Shown here piece after piece: positions 1 to 8,353 of a stretch of 42,655 nucleotides of DNA. Each line of letters starts with the position of its first letter. Position 1 is the first letter of the stretch. A model generated the notes under the pieces. It saw only the letters and a list, made by a program, of their open reading frames with translations. It was not told the origin of the DNA and did no database searches. The DNA is from Bacteroidia bacterium. GTDB taxonomy: Bacteria > Bacteroidota > Bacteroidia > AKYH767-A > OLB10. The DNA lies in assembly GCA_016788185.1 (NCBI GenBank), contig JAEUTF010000202.1, positions 1 to 42,655 of the forward strand, written 5' to 3'. Made by a program: the position numbers and the translations under genes.

Positions 1-1827
1 CGGATCAATCATGTGGTGATAGTGCCAAACGTTCGGATATTTTCCTCCGAGTCGCTGCAAATCGGGTCCTGTTCTCTTTGAACCCCATTGGAAGGGATGG
101 TCATACACATATTCACCGGCCTTGGAATATTCGCCGTAGCGCTCTGTTTCCGAGCGGAAGGGTCGAACCATCTGTGAGTGACAGGTATAACAGCCTTCTC
201 TCACGTAAATGTCGCGGCCCTGTAATTCGAGTGGAGTATAGGGCTTGACACTGGCAATGGTAGGCACATTGGATTGCACCAGAAAGGTGGGAACGAATTC
301 AACGATGCCGCCTATTAGTATTACAATGGTACTGAACAATAACATTTGCATCGGGCGACGCTCAATCCAGCGATGCCAATGGCCACCGTGCTCCGTTTCA
401 TTGGGATTGAGAGCAGGCGCTTCTGCCGCTTCCTCTTCATTCAAGGTGCCGGCTTTCATCGTTTTCATCAGATTATACACCATGCTGAGGGCACCCACCA
501 GGAAGAGGAAGCCACCCAGAGCACGCAATTTATACATTGGTAAAAGCTGAGTGACCGTTTCAAGGAAATTCGGGTAACGCAGCACACCATCGGCAGTGAA
601 CTCTTTCCACATCAGGCTCTGAGTGAAACCGGCCCAATACATCGGTACGGCATAAAACAAAATTCCGAGTGTGGCTATCCAGAAATGGAAAGAGGCAAGT
701 TTTTTAGAGTACAACTCGGTTTTATAGAGACGGGGAATCAGCCAGTATAAAATACCAAAGGTCAGCATGCCGTTCCATCCCAGTCCGCCCACGTGTACGT
801 GGGCAATGGTCCAGTCGGTAAAGTGGCTGATTGCGTTTACATTTTTCAGCGAAAGCATCGGTCCTTCAAAAGTGGCCATGCCGTAGGCCGTAATGGCCAC
901 CACCATGAATTTAAGCACCACATCTTCGCGAACACGATCCCATGCCCCGCGCAGCGTCAGGAGTCCATTGATCATACCGCCCCAGGATGGAGCAAGCAGC
1001 ATGATGGAAAAAACGGTACCCAGTGATTGCGCCCAATCCGGAAGGGCGGAATACAAAAGATGATGCGGTCCCGCCCAGATGTAAAGAAAGATCAACGCCC
1101 AGAAGTGGATGATCGACAGTCGGTACGAATATACGGGTCGATTGGCGGCTTTCGGCACAAAATAATACATCAGTCCGAGGTAGGGAGTGGTCAGGAAAAA
1201 GGCCACGGCATTGTGTCCGTACCACCATTGCACCAATGCATCCTGAACACCGGCATAGGCGGAATAACTTTTAAGAATGCTCACCGGAATTTCAATGGAG
1301 TTTACGATGTGCAGTACGGCAACCGTAACCACGGTGGCAATGTAAAACCAGATTGCTACGTATAAGTGGCGCTCACGTCTTTTGATGATGGTGCCAAACA
1401 TGTTGACGGCAAAAACGATCCAGACCAGAGCGATGAGGATGTCGATGGGCCACTCCAGTTCCGCATACTCCTTGCCGGTCGTGTGGCCGGTCAGCAGGGT
1501 GGCCGCTGCCAGTACAATAATGGTTTGCCAGCCCCAGAAATGCAACTTGCTCAGCAGGTCGCTGAACATCCTGGCTTTGCAGAGGCGTTGTAAGGAATAA
1601 TACAGACCCATAAAAATACCATTGCCCACAAAAGCAAAGATGATGGCGTTGGTGTGCACGGGCCTTACCCGGCCAAAACTGAAGTACTCGCCCAGGTTCA
1701 GGCCCGGGAACGGAATCTGAAGGGCTATGATCAGGCCGAGAAGCATGCCCACGATGCCCCAAACCACGGTGGCTAAGGCAAAGTTTCTTACGATGCGGTT
1801 ATCATAGCTGAATTTTTCAATCGTCAT
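1..1827 (-). CDS. ccoN: cbb3-type cytochrome c oxidase, fused subunits I and II (CcoNO), partial
   Basis: Catalytic subunit of the high-affinity cbb3 terminal oxidase in the inner membrane, reducing O2 to water. The first ~490 residues are a CcoN-type polytopic membrane protein with the haem and CuB histidines in recognisable contexts ([23 protein letters not shown]). After a linker the frame continues into a CcoO-type domain with a single TM segment and a CYTCH haem c site near residue 545, followed by the typical RPFRSE and GPDL segments. CcoN-CcoO fusion is known from Bacteroidota. The frame is still open at base 1, so the C-terminus lies outside the window. The start ATG overlaps the ccoS stop (ATGA, 1824-1827), so the two are translationally coupled. 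Genes for CcoP and later assembly factors would be expected beyond the left edge. Confidence 0.95.
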
Positions 1828-2027
1828 ACAGCGTCAGGATTTTTAGATTTATATTGTTCAGGTTGATTGCTTACTTCTTGATGGTTGAGTTCGTTTTCAA
1901 ACAAGACACGCACAGCCGGTGACACATCATCGTCATATTGCCCGGTTTTTACCGACCATAGAAAACCAAGGAGGAATCCGCCGGCTATCAGCAGGCTAAA
2001 TGCTATGAGAAGAAGGATGACACTCAT
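1824..2027 (-). CDS. ccoS: cbb3 oxidase maturation protein CcoS
   Basis: Small single-TM protein needed for cofactor insertion into cbb3 oxidase. It begins [12 protein letters not shown], giving one hydrophobic segment, followed by the family signature [14 protein letters not shown]. About 67 residues. A longer frame begins at 2051, but family members start with this second Met, and a predicted -7 element (2034-2041) lies between the two Mets, so the upstream Met would not be on the transcript. The predicted transcript start is about 2030, which leaves almost no leader. It lies between ccoI and ccoNO on the same strand and overlaps ccoNO by 4 nt. Confidence 0.9.
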
Positions 2028-2033
2028 GGAAGG

Positions 2034-2099
2034 CAAAACTAAATTTGACAATCATATGACAGGGTGATCTCGCTTAATTAAAATACTGACTTTTATCAT
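2034..2099 (-). promoter_or_regulatory. ccoS-ccoNO promoter with Crp/Fnr-type box
   Basis: Minus-strand -7 element TAGTTTTG at 2034-2041 fits the Bacteroidota consensus TAnnTTTG. A palindrome CTGAC-TTTT-ATCAT (2086-2099, core TGA-N6-TCA) is centred 55 bp upstream of the -7 centre, equivalent to about -62, the class I activator position. It sits in the 77-bp gap just after the ccoI stop. Alternative: a weaker -7 (TATGATTG, 2049-2056) would give a 16-nt leader but a non-canonical box distance. Confidence 0.55.
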
Positions 2100-2104
2100 C
2101 AATT

Positions 2105-4528
2105 TCATTTTTTGAATCCCAGACGGTACGCCTTCAAACTGCTGGCCAGTACGGTATAGATGACCAGGCTGCTGGTACTGATCGGCATGAGGATGGCTGC
2201 AATCACAGGGGACAGGGTGCCCTGCACCGCAAACCACAAGCCGCCGGCGTTGTAGAGCAGGGAGATGATGAAACTGATGACGATGATGCGGTGTCCCGAT
2301 TTGGCAAAGCGAATCAGGCGATGAATGCTCCCGAAATTTTTTGACAGCAGGATTCCATCACAGCCCGGTGTAAAATTGTTGATGTTCTCGGCCAGCGCAA
2401 GGCCCACGTGGCTGTGCATCAGCGCTCCGGCATCATTCAGTCCATCGCCCACCATCATGGCCTTTCTCCCCTCGTCCTGAATGCGATTCACTTCCTTCAA
2501 TTTGTCAAGGGGCTGCATGTCGAATTTCAGTCCTTCCTTCTGACCGGTGAGTGATTCGAGGTAGGGACGTTCGTGTTCGTGATCGCCGCTGATAACGGCC
2601 ACCCGGTACCCGTCGTTTTTAAGATCCTGAATCAATGGAGCGGCTTCGCTCCTGTATAGATTTCTGAATTGAAAATAGCCCAGAATTTCGCCGTTCACCT
2701 GAACCCCGACTTCGGATAGCCGGTATACGTCTTGATCCGGAATTTCATCCTGCAGAAATTTTCGGCTTCCCAGCCTGATAAAATAGGGGGTATGGTTCCC
2801 TTCTATTCCCATTCCGCTGATTTCCTTCACGTCGTATACAGAAGACCTGCTTGCCCCATCGGCCTGGAGGTGCCTGGCGAGCATCCTGCTGAGCGGGTGT
2901 GAGGAGGATTGGGCCAGACTGGCGATGGCTTGTGACAGGTCCTCGTTTAACCTGCTTCCGGTGTAGTGTACCTCAGCCTGTTCGGCGTGGGTAAGCGTCC
3001 CCGTCTTGTCAAAAAGCACAGTGTCCACATCGGCGAGCTTTTCAAGCACATGGGCGTTCTTCAGGTAAATGCCCTTTTTTCCGAGAATGCGGAGCATATT
3101 GCCAAAAGTAAAGGGTGCCGAGAGCGCCAATGCACAGGCACAGGCAATGACCAGCACCGAAGTGAAAGCCCGCATGGCTCTGGAGACATCCTGCGGATAC
3201 CAGTAGAGCAAAGCCAGTGTTGCAATGAGCAGGGTGACTACGACAAACCAACGGCTGATGTGGTTAACCATGGTCTGAAATCCGCTCTTTATTTCCGTTT
3301 TGCCGGATGATTGATTCCACAGTTGGGTAATGTAACTGTGAGATACTACTTTCTGAACCACCACCTCGGCCGGCGATCCCTGAAGGCGGCCACCGGCGTA
3401 TATACGGTCGCCTTTTTCACAGTATACCGGTCGTGATTCCCCGCTCACAAAGCTGTAATCGATCTCGGCCTGGTCACTGATCAGAATCACGTCAGCCGGG
3501 ATGATCTCCTGGTTCCGGATGAATAATCGGTCGTTGATCCGGAGATCCTGAACCGCAACGGGCTCTTCTTTTTGCCCGGTTAAACGGCTGACGGCAATCG
3601 GGAAATACGATTTATAGTCACGGTCAAAAGAAAGCCAGTCGTAGGTTTTGCTCTGGAAATTTCGCCCGATGAGCATGAAAAAAACCAGGCCCGTCATGCT
3701 GTCGAAGTAACCCGGTCCCGAATCCGTGGTGATTTCATAAATGCTGCGAAGAAACATCGCCACAATCCCCACCGCAATCGGAAAGTCAATGTTGACCACC
3801 CTTTGTCTGAAACTCAGCAGTGCGTTTCCCAGGAATTCACTGGCACTGTAAAAGAACACCGGGAGGGAAAGAAACAGGTTCAGGTAGGAAAAGGCCTTGT
3901 GAAAGTCGTTCCCGTGGTATACGCCGCCGGCAAAATATTCCGGAAAACTCAGGAGCATGATGTTGCCAAAAGCAAAACCGGCCACACCGATTTTGTAGAT
4001 GCGGCTTCGGTTTTGAGTTTTTTTGGTTTTTTGCTCCAGTTCATTCAGATTGAGTTCGGGAGCATAACCGATTTCATGGAGTTTCTCCACCACCTTCCTC
4101 AAACTGGTCCTTGACGGATCATAGACCAGCTGAATTTCCTTTTGTATGAAATGGGTCTGGGAACGGAGTATACCGCCATCAAGGCGATTCAGGTGTTCGA
4201 GCAGCCAGATGCAGCTGCTGCAATGCATGGAGGGAATGTGAAAACGGAGGTGCACACTGTCTGCATCCCTGAAACGAATCAGCCGGTTGGCGATCTCCTG
4301 ATTGTCAAGAAAGGCATAACGTTCTCCTAAAACAGGGTTTTGCTGGGTTTGCCCCGGACTATCCTGTAACTGGTAATAATTGCACAGATTATTTTCTGAA
4401 AGTACTTCGTAAACCAGTTTGCAGCCCGGGCAGCAAAAATTTTTCTGATCGAATGAAACGGCCTCTTCTTTGCAATTTTCACCGCAATGATAACATTGGG
4501 TTTGTGTCTGGAGGATTGCTTTCGACAT
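2105..4528 (-). CDS. ccoI: Copper-transporting P1B-type ATPase CcoI/FixI-like
   Basis: Membrane P-type ATPase that in this context supplies copper for cbb3 oxidase assembly. The N-terminus has a cysteine-rich zinc-binding-like module (C12, C15, C19, C32, C33, C36), then an HMA metal-binding domain with MHCSSC (C103, C106). Further on are an actuator SGES (362-365), the phosphorylation site DKTGTLT with D507, and a hinge GDGLND. The TM metal site reads IACACALAL (C463-A464-C465), so the usual proline of the CPC motif is alanine; I checked this at the DNA level (3136-3153). At 807 residues it matches Bacteroidota CcoI-type ATPases. The gene lies upstream of ccoS-ccoNO and has its own promoter with two Crp/Fnr-type boxes. 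Confidence 0.92.
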   Translation of the reverse strand: MSKAILQTQTQCYHCGENCKEEAVSFDQKNFCCPGCKLVYEVLSENNLCNYYQLQDSPGQTQQNPVLGERYAFLDNQEIANRLIRFRDADSVHLRFHIPSMHCSSCIWLLEHLNRLDGGILRSQTHFIQKEIQLVYDPSRTSLRKVVEKLHEIGYAPELNLNELEQKTKKTQNRSRIYKIGVAGFAFGNIMLLSFPEYFAGGVYHGNDFHKAFSYLNLFLSLPVFFYSASEFLGNALLSFRQRVVNIDFPIAVGIVAMFLRSIYEITTDSGPGYFDSMTGLVFFMLIGRNFQSKTYDWLSFDRDYKSYFPIAVSRLTGQKEEPVAVQDLRINDRLFIRNQEIIPADVILISDQAEIDYSFVSGESRPVYCEKGDRIYAGGRLQGSPAEVVVQKVVSHSYITQLWNQSSGKTEIKSGFQTMVNHISRWFVVVTLLIATLALLYWYPQDVSRAMRAFTSVLVIACACALALSAPFTFGNMLRILGKKGIYLKNAHVLEKLADVDTVLFDKTGTLTHAEQAEVHYTGSRLNEDLSQAIASLAQSSSHPLSRMLARHLQADGASRSSVYDVKEISGMGIEGNHTPYFIRLGSRKFLQDEIPDQDVYRLSEVGVQVNGEILGYFQFRNLYRSEAAPLIQDLKNDGYRVAVISGDHEHERPYLESLTGQKEGLKFDMQPLDKLKEVNRIQDEGRKAMMVGDGLNDAGALMHSHVGLALAENINNFTPGCDGILLSKNFGSIHRLIRFAKSGHRIIVISFIISLLYNAGGLWFAVQGTLSPVIAAILMPISTSSLVIYTVLASSLKAYRLGFKK

Positions 4529-4545
4529 ATTTAATTGCTGAATGG

Positions 4546-4611
4546 CAAGATTACGAGCCGGAAGATATCTGAATTATGACATGGGTCATCAGAACCCTTG
4601 ATGCTTGTCAA
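4546..4611 (-). promoter_or_regulatory. ccoI promoter with tandem Crp/Fnr-type boxes
   Basis: Minus-strand -7 element TAATCTTG (4546-4553) matches TAnnTTTG at 7 of 8 positions. Box 1, ATGAC-ATGG-GTCAT (4576-4589), is a perfect outer palindrome centred 33 bp upstream of the -7 centre (about -41, class II). Box 2, TTGAT-GCTT-GTCAA (4598-4611), is close to a textbook FNR/DNR site and is centred 55 bp upstream (about -62, class I). The two boxes are 22 bp apart, two helical turns, so both face the same side of the DNA. Confidence 0.6.
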
Positions 4612-4634
4612 AATGGAGTCAATCAGTCGCCTGT

Positions 4635-4678
4635 TTGATGCAAGTCATAGTTATGGAACCCGATTGCGTTCATTTTTG
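4635..4678 (+). promoter_or_regulatory. Divergent Crp/Fnr-type promoter of unknown target
   Basis: Palindrome TTGAT-GCAA-GTCAT (4635-4648) is followed on the plus strand by CATTTTTG (4671-4678), a 7 of 8 match to TAnnTTTG. The centre-to-centre distance is 33 bp, identical to the proximal ccoI box and the 5185-gene box. A transcript would start near 4682 and run rightward through the hairpin at 4744-4768. No recognisable gene follows before 5155, so it may be an sRNA, a small peptide mRNA or a long leader for the 5185 gene. Confidence 0.4.
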
Positions 4679-5070
4679 CTGCATGCGTGTGAAACCTACT
4701 GTTCTGATAACTCTCGGTCATCTTTATGGGTACCCTGCTTAGTGCCTTGTTCCGTAAAGGTACAAGGCGACCTCCATCGAACTTATTCATTCAAATCTAT
4801 CAAAAAATCGAATAGTGCCTGGCAGTTTGAGAGACACATAAACAGAAAAACACCTGCTGATGGAGACAGATCCGATCATGAATCATCCCCTGATATCCCC
4901 AATGGGCTGTACAATGAGGGAAAAAAGTGAAAAACTGATTCGGCAGACTGAAATGGGGAGAAGATGAAATTAAATTGCTGATAAACAGGGTGCTGCACGT
5001 GAAAGGATAGAAAAGAAGGATGAGGAGATCTTACCCGGGCATATGAAAAATTTGCCATTTGGAATCGCAA

Positions 5071-5128
5071 CTGATATTTATCATTTGGAACCTAAAAACC
5101 AAGAAGCACTTTTGCAGGTTATAACCTG
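5071..5128 (+). promoter_or_regulatory. Promoter of the 5185 gene: Crp/Fnr-type box plus palindrome at the start site
   Basis: Box CTGAT-ATTT-ATCAT (5071-5084) is centred 33 bp upstream of the -7-like element CACTTTTG (5107-5114). A TTTG at 5084-5087 gives a possible -33 element with a 19-bp spacer. Immediately downstream, over the predicted start site, lies the perfect 14-bp palindrome CAGGTTATAACCTG (5115-5128), a candidate repressor operator or 5' hairpin. Confidence 0.5.
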
Positions 5129-5184
5129 AAAGACGAATAACAACCAACGTAATTATGTACGGTCGATTTAACCAGAACACAAAG

Positions 5185-5592
5185 ATGAAACTCGAAATAA
5201 GGGATGACAGGAGATTATTTGAAATTCAGGAAGATTTCAATGTTCTATTTCCATTTTTAAAAATTGAATTTTTTAAGGCTCCGCACAGAATAGGGGAGGG
5301 GTCTGCTAAAATTCTGATTTATGAAAATAGCCGCTATGTTCGCGATTGCCGGGTAAAGCACCAGGATGGCGATTTAGTGATTTCTGAAAAAATGACCGTG
5401 AACGAGTTGGAAGAATCATTCCTGCGTGAATTCGGATTATCGGCCCAGGTATTCAGGAAATCCGGAAACGTCTGGCTGGAAACCTCAGCCACCGATAACT
5501 GGACACTCCGGCAGCAAAACAGTGAAGGTGCGGAATTATCGACCCAGATCCGTGACAAGCGTGAAAATGCGGATGATACCGACATGTATTGA
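5185..5592 (+). CDS. Conserved-looking hypothetical protein of the respiration locus
   Basis: I do not recognise a domain. The protein is about 135 residues from the second Met (MKLEIRDDRRLFEIQEDFN); an ATG at 5155 would add ten residues of less regular composition. It is soluble and charged, with no signal peptide or TM segment. The first ~100 residues look like an alpha/beta fold and the last ~25 are polar and likely disordered. It sits alone between two promoter-rich gaps and ends at a bidirectional terminator facing the regulator gene. A Crp/Fnr-type box at class II distance precedes it, so I infer that it is expressed with the cbb3 genes. Codon use resembles the neighbours. Function unknown. 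Confidence 0.75.
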   Translation: MKLEIRDDRRLFEIQEDFNVLFPFLKIEFFKAPHRIGEGSAKILIYENSRYVRDCRVKHQDGDLVISEKMTVNELEESFLREFGLSAQVFRKSGNVWLETSATDNWTLRQQNSEGAELSTQIRDKRENADDTDMY

Positions 5593-5612
5593 CCGGAAGC
5601 GTATACAGAAGT

Positions 5613-5649
5613 AAAAAAAGCGGAGCACCCGAAAGAGGCTCCGCTTTTT
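5613..5649. terminator. Bidirectional intrinsic terminator
   Basis: Perfect 7-bp stem GCGGAGC (5620-5626) and GCTCCGC (5638-5644), flanked by an A-run (5613-5619) and a T-run (5645-5649). It separates the convergent 5185 gene and the receiver-Crp/Fnr regulator. Confidence 0.9.
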
Positions 5650-5666
5650 CATTCACGTTCGTAGGA

Positions 5667-6728
5667 TTAACCTTTCAGGCTCCTGAGTTTCTTTTCATCG
5701 AGTAATCGGATCTTACCGTCTTTTATCTCGATCAGCTTTTCTTCTTTAAAGTCGCTCAGCGTTCGTATCAGCGATTCGGTGGCGGTTCCGACGATGTTGG
5801 CAAGGTCATCGCGGGCAATGGCCATTGAAAACTGTTCTCCCTCTTTATGCTGGTATTTTTCCTGTAAGAGTAAAAGGGCTTCCGCCGTTCTTTTCCGGAC
5901 GGAACTGTAGGCCAGGTCGAGCAGGCGCTCCTGTTTGTCAATGACCCCCTTGGTCAGAATTTTAATGAAGTTGCGTGTCACGGATACATTGCCGAAAACC
6001 ATGTTCTGAAACTCTTCTTTGGGAATGAACGTGATTTCGGAATCCTCGAGCGCTTCCGCCGATTCGTTGTAAGGATTCTCCTCCAGCAAAGCTGTATATC
6101 CAAAAAAATCACCCTCTTTCAGAAGGTCGGTGATCAGTTCTTTTCCGTATTCGTGCGTTTTGAAAATCTTGATTTTGCCTTTGTTGATATAATACAATCC
6201 ATTGGGGTAATTTCCTTCCAGGTAAACCGATTCCTTTTTGCGGTAGTGATTCACTTTCTTTCCTTCGAGGAATCTTTTGAGGGCATTCACCCCGGCTACA
6301 TCACTGATGAAATTACCAAGGCCGTCAATGTCCTTTTCATATTCCTTTTTAAGGATATCAGCCTTCCGGATACGGCTCTCCACCGCATTCAGCAATTCAC
6401 TTTTATCAAAGGGCTTGGTGATGTAGTCGTCGGCTCCCATGTCCATGCCGCGTCGCATGTCGCTCCTTTCGGCTTTGGCTGTCAGAAAAATAAAGGGGAC
6501 GGAGGCCAGTTGCGGGTCCTTGCCCAGCAAGTGCAACACGCCGTATCCGTCGAGGCCCGGCATCATGATGTCACAAATAATCAGATCAGGCTGCTCTTTC
6601 TTGGCCATTTCCACCCCTTCCTTTCCGTCAGGCGCCGTAACGACTTTGAAATTGGCTAACTCAAGAATTTCAGCGGTATTTTCCCTGACATCTTCGTTGT
6701 CTTCTATCAGTAGGATTTTCTTATTCAT
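5667..6728 (-). CDS. Response regulator: receiver domain fused to a Crp/Fnr-type DNA-binding module
   Basis: Residues 1-120 form a CheY-like receiver with acidic pocket EDNED, phospho-acceptor D53 (ICDIMMPG) and K105 (TKPF). Residues ~145-265 form a cNMP-binding-type beta-roll, and ~270-353 a Crp-type winged helix with recognition helix TESLIRTL. The E and R of that helix match the pair that reads the TGA half-site in Crp/Fnr proteins. The beta-roll lacks the Arg-Ser of the cAMP phosphate pocket (NESAEA instead), and apart from one Cys in the receiver domain (C52) there are no cysteines, so direct cAMP or [4Fe-4S] sensing is unlikely. Activation is presumably by phosphorylation. The start overlaps the kinase stop (ATGA, 6725-6728). 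It is the obvious candidate to bind the TGA-N6-TCA boxes nearby. Confidence 0.92.
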   Translation of the reverse strand: MNKKILLIEDNEDVRENTAEILELANFKVVTAPDGKEGVEMAKKEQPDLIICDIMMPGLDGYGVLHLLGKDPQLASVPFIFLTAKAERSDMRRGMDMGADDYITKPFDKSELLNAVESRIRKADILKKEYEKDIDGLGNFISDVAGVNALKRFLEGKKVNHYRKKESVYLEGNYPNGLYYINKGKIKIFKTHEYGKELITDLLKEGDFFGYTALLEENPYNESAEALEDSEITFIPKEEFQNMVFGNVSVTRNFIKILTKGVIDKQERLLDLAYSSVRKRTAEALLLLQEKYQHKEGEQFSMAIARDDLANIVGTATESLIRTLSDFKEEKLIEIKDGKIRLLDEKKLRSLKG

Positions 6729-7975
6729 GTTGATGGTTTTGCTTGGTTGGGGAAAGTGATTTTTATGGTGGTACCCTTGTCGATTTCACTGTGGAGCATG
6801 ATATGTCCCTTCATCAGGTCTACATAATTTCCGACAATGTGTAAGCCCAGTCCGGTGCCCTGAATATTGAAGGCATTCTTCCCACGGTAGAAGCGTTCAA
6901 ACAAATGCTTCTGGTCCTCATCACTGATTCCGATACCCTGGTCTTCCACTTCCAGGCTGATCGTGAAAGCATCAACCCTGGTTCTTACCTGAATGGTTTT
7001 ATGTTCAGCGGTGAATTTAATGGCATTGCTGATCAGGTTGATCAGGATGTTTTTCAAAAGCTTGCTGTCGAGGTAAATGCTGTTGTTTCCCTTGTGTTCA
7101 TAGGCAATTACCTGACCGGCCTTTGCCGTTAAATGAAAATCGCTTACCACTTCATTGGCCAATGCCGGCAATTCAAACGTTCGGTATTCGGCATGTACCT
7201 TTCCTTCCTCCAGTTTGCTGATGGAGAGGAAGTCGCTTAAAATGTCATTCAGGTTGTTGACGGCTGACTTTATCCGGTTGATGTGTTTGATTCTCTTTTC
7301 ATTGCTTGAACTGTCAACATACTCCGAGATCAGACTGGCGGAGGAAAGAATCGTAGTCAGAGGCGTTCTGAATTCATGGGAGGCCATTGAAATGAATCTT
7401 GATTTTAAATCATTCAGATCTTTGGCCTTTTCGAGTGCCAGGCTGAGTTCGTTCCTTGATCGTTCGAGTTCCCGAATGGCTTCCTGCAATACCTTGGTAC
7501 GGGCAGATACCTTCTTTTCAAGCTCCTCGTTGGTGGCAATCAGGGCGGCCGCTACCCGCTCAAGTTCCTTTTGCTTGTCCTGTACCGCCAGTTCAATTTG
7601 TTTCCGGAAGGTGATGTCTATGATAAAAGCTATGATGAGCCTTTCCTTCTTTACTTCAATCGGACTGAGGCTGATTTCAACCGGCATAAGATCGCCGGTT
7701 TTTTTACGGGCATACAAATCCAGTCCAACCCCCATGGGCCTGGAATGTGCGTGCTGATGATAGTTTTCGCGGTAGTGGTGGTGCTTGCCCCGGATACTGT
7801 CCGGAATCAGGTCTTCGATAACAAGTTGCTGCAATTCTTCGCTGGTGTAACCCAGCATACCGGCGGCAGCATGATTGGCCAGCCGGATACTACCTTTTGT
7901 ATCAGCAACGATGATCCCCTCAGTGGCATGATTAAATAAGGTATCAATTAATTCAAACTTGTCAATACTGTCCAT
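6725..7975 (-). CDS. Soluble PAS-domain sensor histidine kinase
   Basis: 416 residues with no TM segment or signal peptide, hence cytoplasmic. A PAS domain spans ~10-125, then a coiled-coil linker (~125-190), a HisKA domain with MASHEFRTP (H200 as phospho-acceptor), and a HATPase with NLISNAIKF, DQGIGI and GTGLGLHI. In the PAS domain, R62-G-K-H65 aligns by eye with the R-x-x-H that carries the proximal haem His in FixL. The distal-pocket Arg of FixL is not conserved: GVGLDL stands where FixL has GIGR. The PAS could bind haem or another ligand; non-haem PAS domains can also carry this His. It overlaps its response regulator by 4 nt, forming a cognate pair. Confidence 0.92.
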   Translation of the reverse strand: MDSIDKFELIDTLFNHATEGIIVADTKGSIRLANHAAAGMLGYTSEELQQLVIEDLIPDSIRGKHHHYRENYHQHAHSRPMGVGLDLYARKKTGDLMPVEISLSPIEVKKERLIIAFIIDITFRKQIELAVQDKQKELERVAAALIATNEELEKKVSARTKVLQEAIRELERSRNELSLALEKAKDLNDLKSRFISMASHEFRTPLTTILSSASLISEYVDSSSNEKRIKHINRIKSAVNNLNDILSDFLSISKLEEGKVHAEYRTFELPALANEVVSDFHLTAKAGQVIAYEHKGNNSIYLDSKLLKNILINLISNAIKFTAEHKTIQVRTRVDAFTISLEVEDQGIGISDEDQKHLFERFYRGKNAFNIQGTGLGLHIVGNYVDLMKGHIMLHSEIDKGTTIKITFPNQAKPST

Positions 7976-8067
7976 AACAGATGCGGTACGCTTCCCCCGT
8001 AATAAAAATAGTTAAATCCATGCGATCACAAAATTCCACACCGGAAACCTGTCTGAAACAGGCCTGC

Positions 8068-8262
8068 TCAGGCATCGTGTGACTTACGCAGGGTGTTGAT
8101 ACCTAGTAAACTATAAAGGGGGCAAATGCCGATGATTCCGGTTACGAAAGGGATCAGGCCAAGCAGGGCCCAGGCACTGTTTTGGTAGACAAAGAACATC
8201 GCAATGGCGACGCCCAGAAACATTCTGAGTACACGGTCGTTCATTCCCATATTGGTTTTCAT
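8068..8262 (-). CDS. DUF2892 (YgaP-like) small membrane protein
   Basis: About 64 residues. It starts MKTNMGMNDRVLRM, matching the DUF2892 N-terminus, then has two TM segments and the signature CPLYSLLGINT. Members are inner-membrane proteins, sometimes fused to rhodanese domains; the molecular role is not settled. An upstream Met at 8286 is excluded because the predicted -7 element (8288-8295) places the transcript start near 8284. A 5-bp stem (8048-8062) follows the stop and may be a weak terminator before the kinase gene. It has a Crp/Fnr-type box at class I distance, so it probably belongs to the low-oxygen set. Confidence 0.85.
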   Translation of the reverse strand: MKTNMGMNDRVLRMFLGVAIAMFFVYQNSAWALLGLIPFVTGIIGICPLYSLLGINTLRKSHDA

Positions 8263-8287
8263 AGCTGATTTGTTTTGAATGATCATT

Positions 8288-8353
8288 CAAAAATAGAGGC
8301 ATGAAAAATCAGCTTGCATAACGGCGCTCAGGTCATTTCATGATTTATGTCAG
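8288..8353 (-). promoter_or_regulatory. DUF2892 gene promoter with Crp/Fnr-type box
   Basis: Minus-strand -7 element TATTTTTG (8288-8295) is a perfect TAnnTTTG match. On the plus strand the box reads ATGAT-TTAT-GTCAG (8340-8353, core TGA-N6-TCA) and is centred 55 bp upstream of the -7, exactly the distance seen at ccoS and at the distal ccoI box. It lies just after the stop of the upstream nuclease gene. Confidence 0.55.

Follow-up and report, generated by a model that had tools for sequence, protein, structure and literature searches.

The stretch of DNA analysed here, 42,655 nucleotides of contig JAEUTF010000202.1 from a Bacteroidia bacterium (hereafter the window), carries a cbb3 oxidase locus with regularly spaced palindromic boxes of the Crp/Fnr type in its intergenic gaps. 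On the minus strand lie ccoS (1824..2027), with ccoN/O downstream of it (1-1824), and the gene for a ccoI-type copper P-ATPase (2105..4528). On the plus strand, 5155..5592 encodes a conserved protein of unknown function (the 5155 gene), which adjoins a regulator gene (5667..6728, minus strand) whose product of 353 amino acids combines receiver, cNMP_binding and HTH_Crp domains by Pfam, has the recognition helix GTATESLIRTL and is called receiver-Crp below. A PAS histidine kinase of 416 amino acids (6725..7975, minus strand; Pfam) and a small YgaP-like_TM (DUF2892) membrane protein (8068..8286, minus strand) complete the locus; the second ATG of the latter is probably its start codon, and its gene is likely the first of a kinase-regulator operon. 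The ccoS, ccoI, 5155 and DUF2892 genes are targets of the boxes. We consider it probable that these boxes are activator sites of a Bacteroidota oxygen-limitation regulon, with receiver-Crp as their main reader and an FNR as the second. There is strong support, some of it from a genome-wide scan, for the original prediction that the cbb3 genes are surrounded by a Crp/Fnr-type regulon with fixed promoter spacing.

The six predicted TGA-N6-TCA sites were all found, at 2087, 4577, 4599, 4636, 5072 and 8341, the earlier coordinates each being 1 lower. All six also match the tighter TGAYNNNNRTCA (TGAY-N4-RTCA), which in whole-genome pattern searches, the method used for all genome-wide box counts, occurs 296 times per 3.23 Mb of the bacterium's own genome, or about once per 11 kb. 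The outer T/A positions of a TTGAT-N4-ATCAA-like palindrome vary among the boxes; the TGAY-N4-RTCA core is found at 6/6 sites. With this core, 6 boxes were found against 0.07 expected in three gaps (777 bp; p ~2e-10), which upholds the claim that their clustering is far above chance. The accompanying estimate of one plain TGA-N6-TCA per 4 kb was too low for this DNA, where 33 occur in 42.7 kb compared with 15.1 in shuffled sequence.

The predicted distances from the box to a TAnnTTTG-like -7 element, measured centre to centre, proved exact: 33 bp for the boxes at 4577 (minus strand), 4636 and 5072 (both plus strand), and 55 bp for those at 2087, 4599 and 8341 (all minus strand). The -7 elements themselves are complete (6/6) for ccoS and DUF2892 and reach 5/6 at the remaining three promoters; a single -7 element is common to the boxes at 4577 and 4599, so that there are five promoters rather than six. 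TAnnTTTG at -7 is the consensus of the Bacteroidota primary-sigma promoter (PMC7366714), and all five promoters conform to it to this degree, their start sites being predicted ones. No sigma70-type promoters were found within 4500-5700, and an Rfam scan of the window gave no match.

The earlier analysis overlooked three degenerate partner boxes, at 2065-2076, 8319-8330 and 4614-4625, each lying exactly 22 bp from a named box. At ccoS, the distal box TGATAAAAGTCA (2087..2098, minus strand; 55 bp from the -7 element, about -62) has the same spacing in at least 12 related genomes, and it is accompanied by a 5/6 proximal box TAAGCGAGATCA (2065..2076, minus strand) at the 33 position and the -7 element TAGTTTTG (2034..2041, minus strand). 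The DUF2892 promoter is built alike, with a distal box TGACATAAATCA (8341..8352, minus strand) at the 55 position that is kept in about 10 related loci, a 5/6 proximal box TGAGCGCCGTTA (8319..8330, minus strand) and the -7 element TATTTTTG (8288..8295, minus strand). A perfect pair precedes ccoI: the distal box TGACAAGCATCA (4599..4610) at the 55 position and the proximal box TGACCCATGTCA (4577..4588) at the 33 position, the latter kept in five relatives (G007, G009, G014, G020, G022), both served by TAATCTTG (4546..4553), all on the minus strand. On the plus strand, the promoter of an unassigned transcript has a proximal box TGATGCAAGTCA (4636..4647) at the 33 position, kept in relative G002, a 5/6 distal partner TGGAGTCAATCA (4614..4625) and a -7 element CATTTTTG (4671..4678) that is identical in G002. 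The 5155 gene has a single box TGATATTTATCA (5072..5083, plus strand) at the 33 position and a -7 element CACTTTTG (5107..5114, plus strand), again identical in G002.

A genome-wide spacing scan, set beforehand as the refuting test, gave peaks at the two predicted spacings. Thirty-one gaps were scanned from a perfect -7 element, gaps 23 and 45 corresponding to 33 and 55 bp centre to centre. In the own genome, 13/28 matches to TGAN6TCA plus a perfect -7 element fell at these two gaps, and 8/13 did so when the window was removed and YR boxes were used (p ~3e-7). Searching 61 genomes drawn from the same genus, family, order and class gave 272 and 166 exact occurrences of the pattern, compared with 39 at control gap 34. 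A separate set of 79 loci was fetched around the receiver-Crp gene (788 kb); here the counts were 26 and 61 against a mean of 0.7 per other gap. Moreover, the ccoS, ccoI, DUF2892 and 5155 promoters keep the box and its exact spacing in about 15 relatives (neighbour proteins 50-90% identical) while the surrounding letters differ. Contrary to what had been supposed, the code is not local to the cbb3 locus: it also stands before USP, Hsp20, RIC Fe-S repair and further genes, and it is present in most related genomes. Its recurrence across the own genome and the relatives points, we suggest, to a low-oxygen gene programme that they have in common and that Crp/Fnr-type activators read.

Targets in the own genome comprise, besides ccoS, ccoI, DUF2892 and the 5155 gene, USP and Hsp20 (both with tandem boxes) and two ScdA/hemerythrin RIC proteins, as well as a tryptophanase-kind beta-eliminating lyase, a homogentisate dioxygenase-like protein, an HGD-D dehydratase subunit and others; some of the one-mismatch matches are probably due to chance. 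Recurrent targets in the relatives are ccoS (17), 5155 (13), DUF2892 (10), USP (10), the kinase (9), Hsp20 (7) and DoxX (7), followed by the rarer HemN-like radical SAM protein (3) and cytochrome c (3). Judged by these predicted functions, the set is what an oxygen-limitation regulon would hold. Homologs of 5155 lie near the receiver-Crp gene in 47/100 loci; the protein has no Pfam or NCBIfam match, and a fold search with its AlphaFold model (pLDDT 83) gave no significant match.

Six proteins with a cNMP-type domain are encoded in the own genome, and only two of them carry a GTATE[ST]LIR helix. One is receiver-Crp, a single protein with Response_reg, cNMP_binding and HTH_Crp_2 domains. The window's own bacterium seems to belong to an uncultured lineage, and cultured relatives that carry the receiver-Crp gene include Runella limosa, Dyadobacter and Rufibacter. 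The protein has only one cysteine, located in the receiver domain (ICDI), and so lacks the N-terminal cysteine triad and central cysteine of an FNR; nor does it follow the arrangement of separate FixJ and FixK genes. By its predicted domains it is neither an FNR, having no cysteine set, nor a FixK, having its own receiver. When cAMP was considered as its ligand, inspection by eye suggested that the Arg-Ser pair that contacts cAMP in CRP is missing from its cNMP domain. The other is a protein of 235 amino acids on contig C166 (helix GTATETLIRNL) with an N-terminal CX2CX8C motif and one further cysteine, which is the set to be expected in a [4Fe-4S]-type FNR. Its gene lies near a ScdA/RIC gene and one for a small truncated-hemoglobin-like protein (locus L213, C166:4500-13000), and the divergent gap there holds two boxes with the 33 bp spacing.

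Either regulator alone accompanies the code in some genomes, and both are therefore plausible readers. Sixteen genomes of the same family with receiver-Crp and no detected close relative of the FNR hold 61 spaced boxes against 9 at the control gap; five FNR-only genomes hold 23 against 2. Another three genomes have neither regulator, a partial match occurring in one; their count is 4 against 0, and the shorter gap accounts for all 4. The original prediction named receiver-Crp as the reader, and this stands insofar as it is probably the main one here; it is not the sole candidate, since the cysteine-rich FNR has nearly the same recognition helix and probably reads the same boxes too. We regard it as unlikely that the FNR is the only reader, with receiver-Crp reading something else and its adjacency being incidental. 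The presence in the own genome of an FNR with the full cysteine set, the counts in the FNR-only genomes and the ccoS and ccoI boxes kept in one of them (G004) would fit such an arrangement, but it leaves unexplained the 16 receiver-Crp genomes, those fetched of which keep their local boxes, and the fact that the code precedes the kinase gene itself in 9 loci.

The kinase offers a possible link to oxygen. The FixL and DosP heme domains are among the best solved relatives of its N-terminal PAS domain, and H65, which aligns to the heme-ligand histidine of FixL, is kept in 82/84 orthologs while the flanking residues vary freely; the domain would likely bind heme. Besides the 9 loci in which the code stands before the kinase gene, it stands before the receiver-Crp gene in 2, and the window's DUF2892 promoter probably extends transcription into the kinase and receiver-Crp genes; autoregulation of the kinase-regulator operon is likely on both grounds.

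Boxes are frequently doubled, and scoring partners as matches out of 6 revealed a strict rule. Among 81 unique promoters with a -55 box, 66 have a partner scoring at least 5/6 exactly 22 bp downstream, and no other offset between 13 and 33 has more than 3; with about one locus per genome, the partner lies at offset 22 in 21/32 cases, compared with 3/640 positions elsewhere. Requiring at least 5/6 from both boxes returned 80 pairs at offset 22 (44 perfect in both boxes, 35 in the distal box only and 1 in the proximal only) and 0-4 at each other offset from 18 to 26. Partners of at least 4/6 at the -33 position accompany 84/88 strict -55 boxes, 72 of these partners scoring at least 5/6. Conversely, 24/30 strict -33 boxes in the one-locus sample stand alone. 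Because most -33 boxes are lone and nearly all -55 boxes paired, we take the -40 position as the predicted common element and a perfect box near -62 as a frequent add-on. A tie between the tandem rule and one of the regulators is unsupported, FNR-only G004 having a 5/6 partner at ccoS (L163).

These pairs bear directly on the original proposal that class I promoters (-62) and class II promoters (-41) occur independently of each other, which drew on the discreteness of the 33 and 55 bp spacings and which now appears quite improbable. The 33 bp distance to the -7 centre, in the own genome and in the 61 genomes, agrees with a class II position (~-41.5) relative to predicted start sites. By contrast, the -55 boxes do not conform to class I, in which an activator sits at about -61.5 without a -41 site: nearly all have their -33 partner, and the window's ccoS and DUF2892 sites are paired too.

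The sequences themselves show the boxes, their spacings, the tandem rule, the conservation, the targets and the two regulators with their domains; from these we infer activation, cooperativity, the identity of the regulators and oxygen as the signal, and suggest the following mechanism. A Crp/Fnr-family dimer would bind a TGAY-N4-RTCA box whose centre lies 33 bp before the TAnnTTTG -7 element (about -40, class II) and recruit RNA polymerase. Most core-set promoters would take up a second dimer at about -62, on a box that lies exactly 22 bp, or two helical turns, upstream of the first; since this distal box stays perfect while the proximal one may decay, its probable role is to anchor the cooperative occupation of its weaker partner. 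The PAS kinase next door, probably a FixL-like heme-based sensor, would phosphorylate receiver-Crp, which would amount to a fusion of FixJ with FixK, and the separate [4Fe-4S] FNR, with its near-identical recognition helix, probably reads the same boxes. More tentatively, a Bacteroidota-wide code (perfect box at ~-62, weaker one at ~-40, 22 bp apart) might have two interchangeable readers, a receiver-Crp fusion under heme-PAS control and a [4Fe-4S] FNR, with tandem cooperative binding setting the threshold; if so, two chemically different oxygen sensors would share one regulon.

Several observations weigh against this interpretation. The counts in relatives include many orthologous promoters and are not all independent, an effect that touches the own-genome test and the one-locus sample less. 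Some genomes with receiver-Crp (G042, G049, G052) have few exact matches, and the -7 element reaches only 5/6 at three of the window's five promoters. The motif cannot separate the two regulators, as the boxes kept in G004 illustrate. Finally, the position of the FixL distal arginine is Met, Leu or Arg in the kinase orthologs (Leu here), and this type of PAS domain need not bind heme. Repression, for instance aerobic repression by a Crp/Fnr-type protein blocking polymerase, is very unlikely: Crp/Fnr proteins are able to repress and the proximal box abuts the -33 region, but positions of about -40 and -62 on one helical face, together with weak -7 elements, suit activation, and no spacing peak lies over the -7/start region, in a scan that covered upstream boxes only. 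Chance or a compositional artefact, which the abundance of plain TGA-N6-TCA in the window might suggest, can practically be dismissed, as the genome-wide spacing histogram already refutes it and the peaks appear outside the window and in dozens of other genomes.

The proposed regulon resembles several known systems. It shares with the FNR/Anr regulons of Proteobacteria (box TTGATNNNNATCAA) the core TGATNNNNATCA, the class II position and a cysteine-rich regulator in the genome, and cbb3 oxidase is among their targets (PMC6588701), as here; it differs in its Bacteroidota -7 promoter instead of a sigma70 one, in outer T/A positions that are not required, in a 22-bp tandem pair common in the core set and in a code probably shared with a phospho-regulated reader. 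With the FixL-FixJ-FixK cascade of Alphaproteobacteria it has in common a FixL-related PAS kinase, a presumed phosphorelay to a Crp-type regulator without Fe-S and cbb3 targets, whereas here receiver and Crp-type activator form one protein; the fixK gene usually stands apart and is switched on by FixJ. FixLJ-FixK has been proposed to have taken over FnrN boxes in Alphaproteobacteria (PMC4999443), a parallel to a possible replacement of one regulator by the other on existing boxes here. Two Crp/Fnr-type regulators likewise serve one promoter set in Herbaspirillum seropedicae (Fnr1/Fnr3; PMC5934665), but those are both FNR orthologs, possibly forming heterodimers on one box, while here a receiver domain distinguishes one of the two and doubled boxes are frequent. 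Myxococcus xanthus NmpRSTU similarly places cbb3, its P-type ATPase and hemN under two-component control (PMC11841059), with a protoglobin kinase sensor and an NtrC-like regulator instead. A literature search with limited coverage of subscription journals found no receiver-Crp or FNR-type regulon and no activator-to-promoter geometry described for Bacteroidota; a 2021 study of wastewater genomes assigned MalR motifs to Bacteroidota Crp/Fnr homologs instead (PMC8510549). So strict a rule (33 bp, 22 bp, TAnnTTTG) makes the low-oxygen regulons of a large phylum readable from sequence. It also provides an activator-RNA polymerase geometry that can be put to the test for the unusual Bacteroidota primary sigma factor, and it draws attention to a fused regulator that is widespread and apparently unstudied.

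Some minor features of the window accompany these promoters. The ccoS start codon lies 6 nt past its -7 element (2027-2041), a distance of 6-12 nt in at least 12 genomes, and the ccoS mRNA is therefore probably nearly leaderless; in B. thetaiotaomicron, 5' untranslated regions of <10 nt make up only ~3.7% (PMC7366714). A structured small RNA after the 4636 promoter is unsupported (fold z-score 0.2, no terminator-like site), and 4679-5071, downstream of that promoter, contains no recognisable gene. At the same place G007 and G022 seem, by eye, to carry a small membrane-protein-like open reading frame behind a TACTTTTG element, so the region may be a remnant or yield a short transcript. A palindrome, CAGGTTATAACCTG, lies at 5115-5128, directly 3' of the -7 element of the 5155 gene and on its predicted start site, and is only partly kept in G002. 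An inverted repeat, CCTGTCTGAAACAGG, at 8046-8067 between the DUF2892 and kinase genes is a possible attenuator inside the presumed operon.

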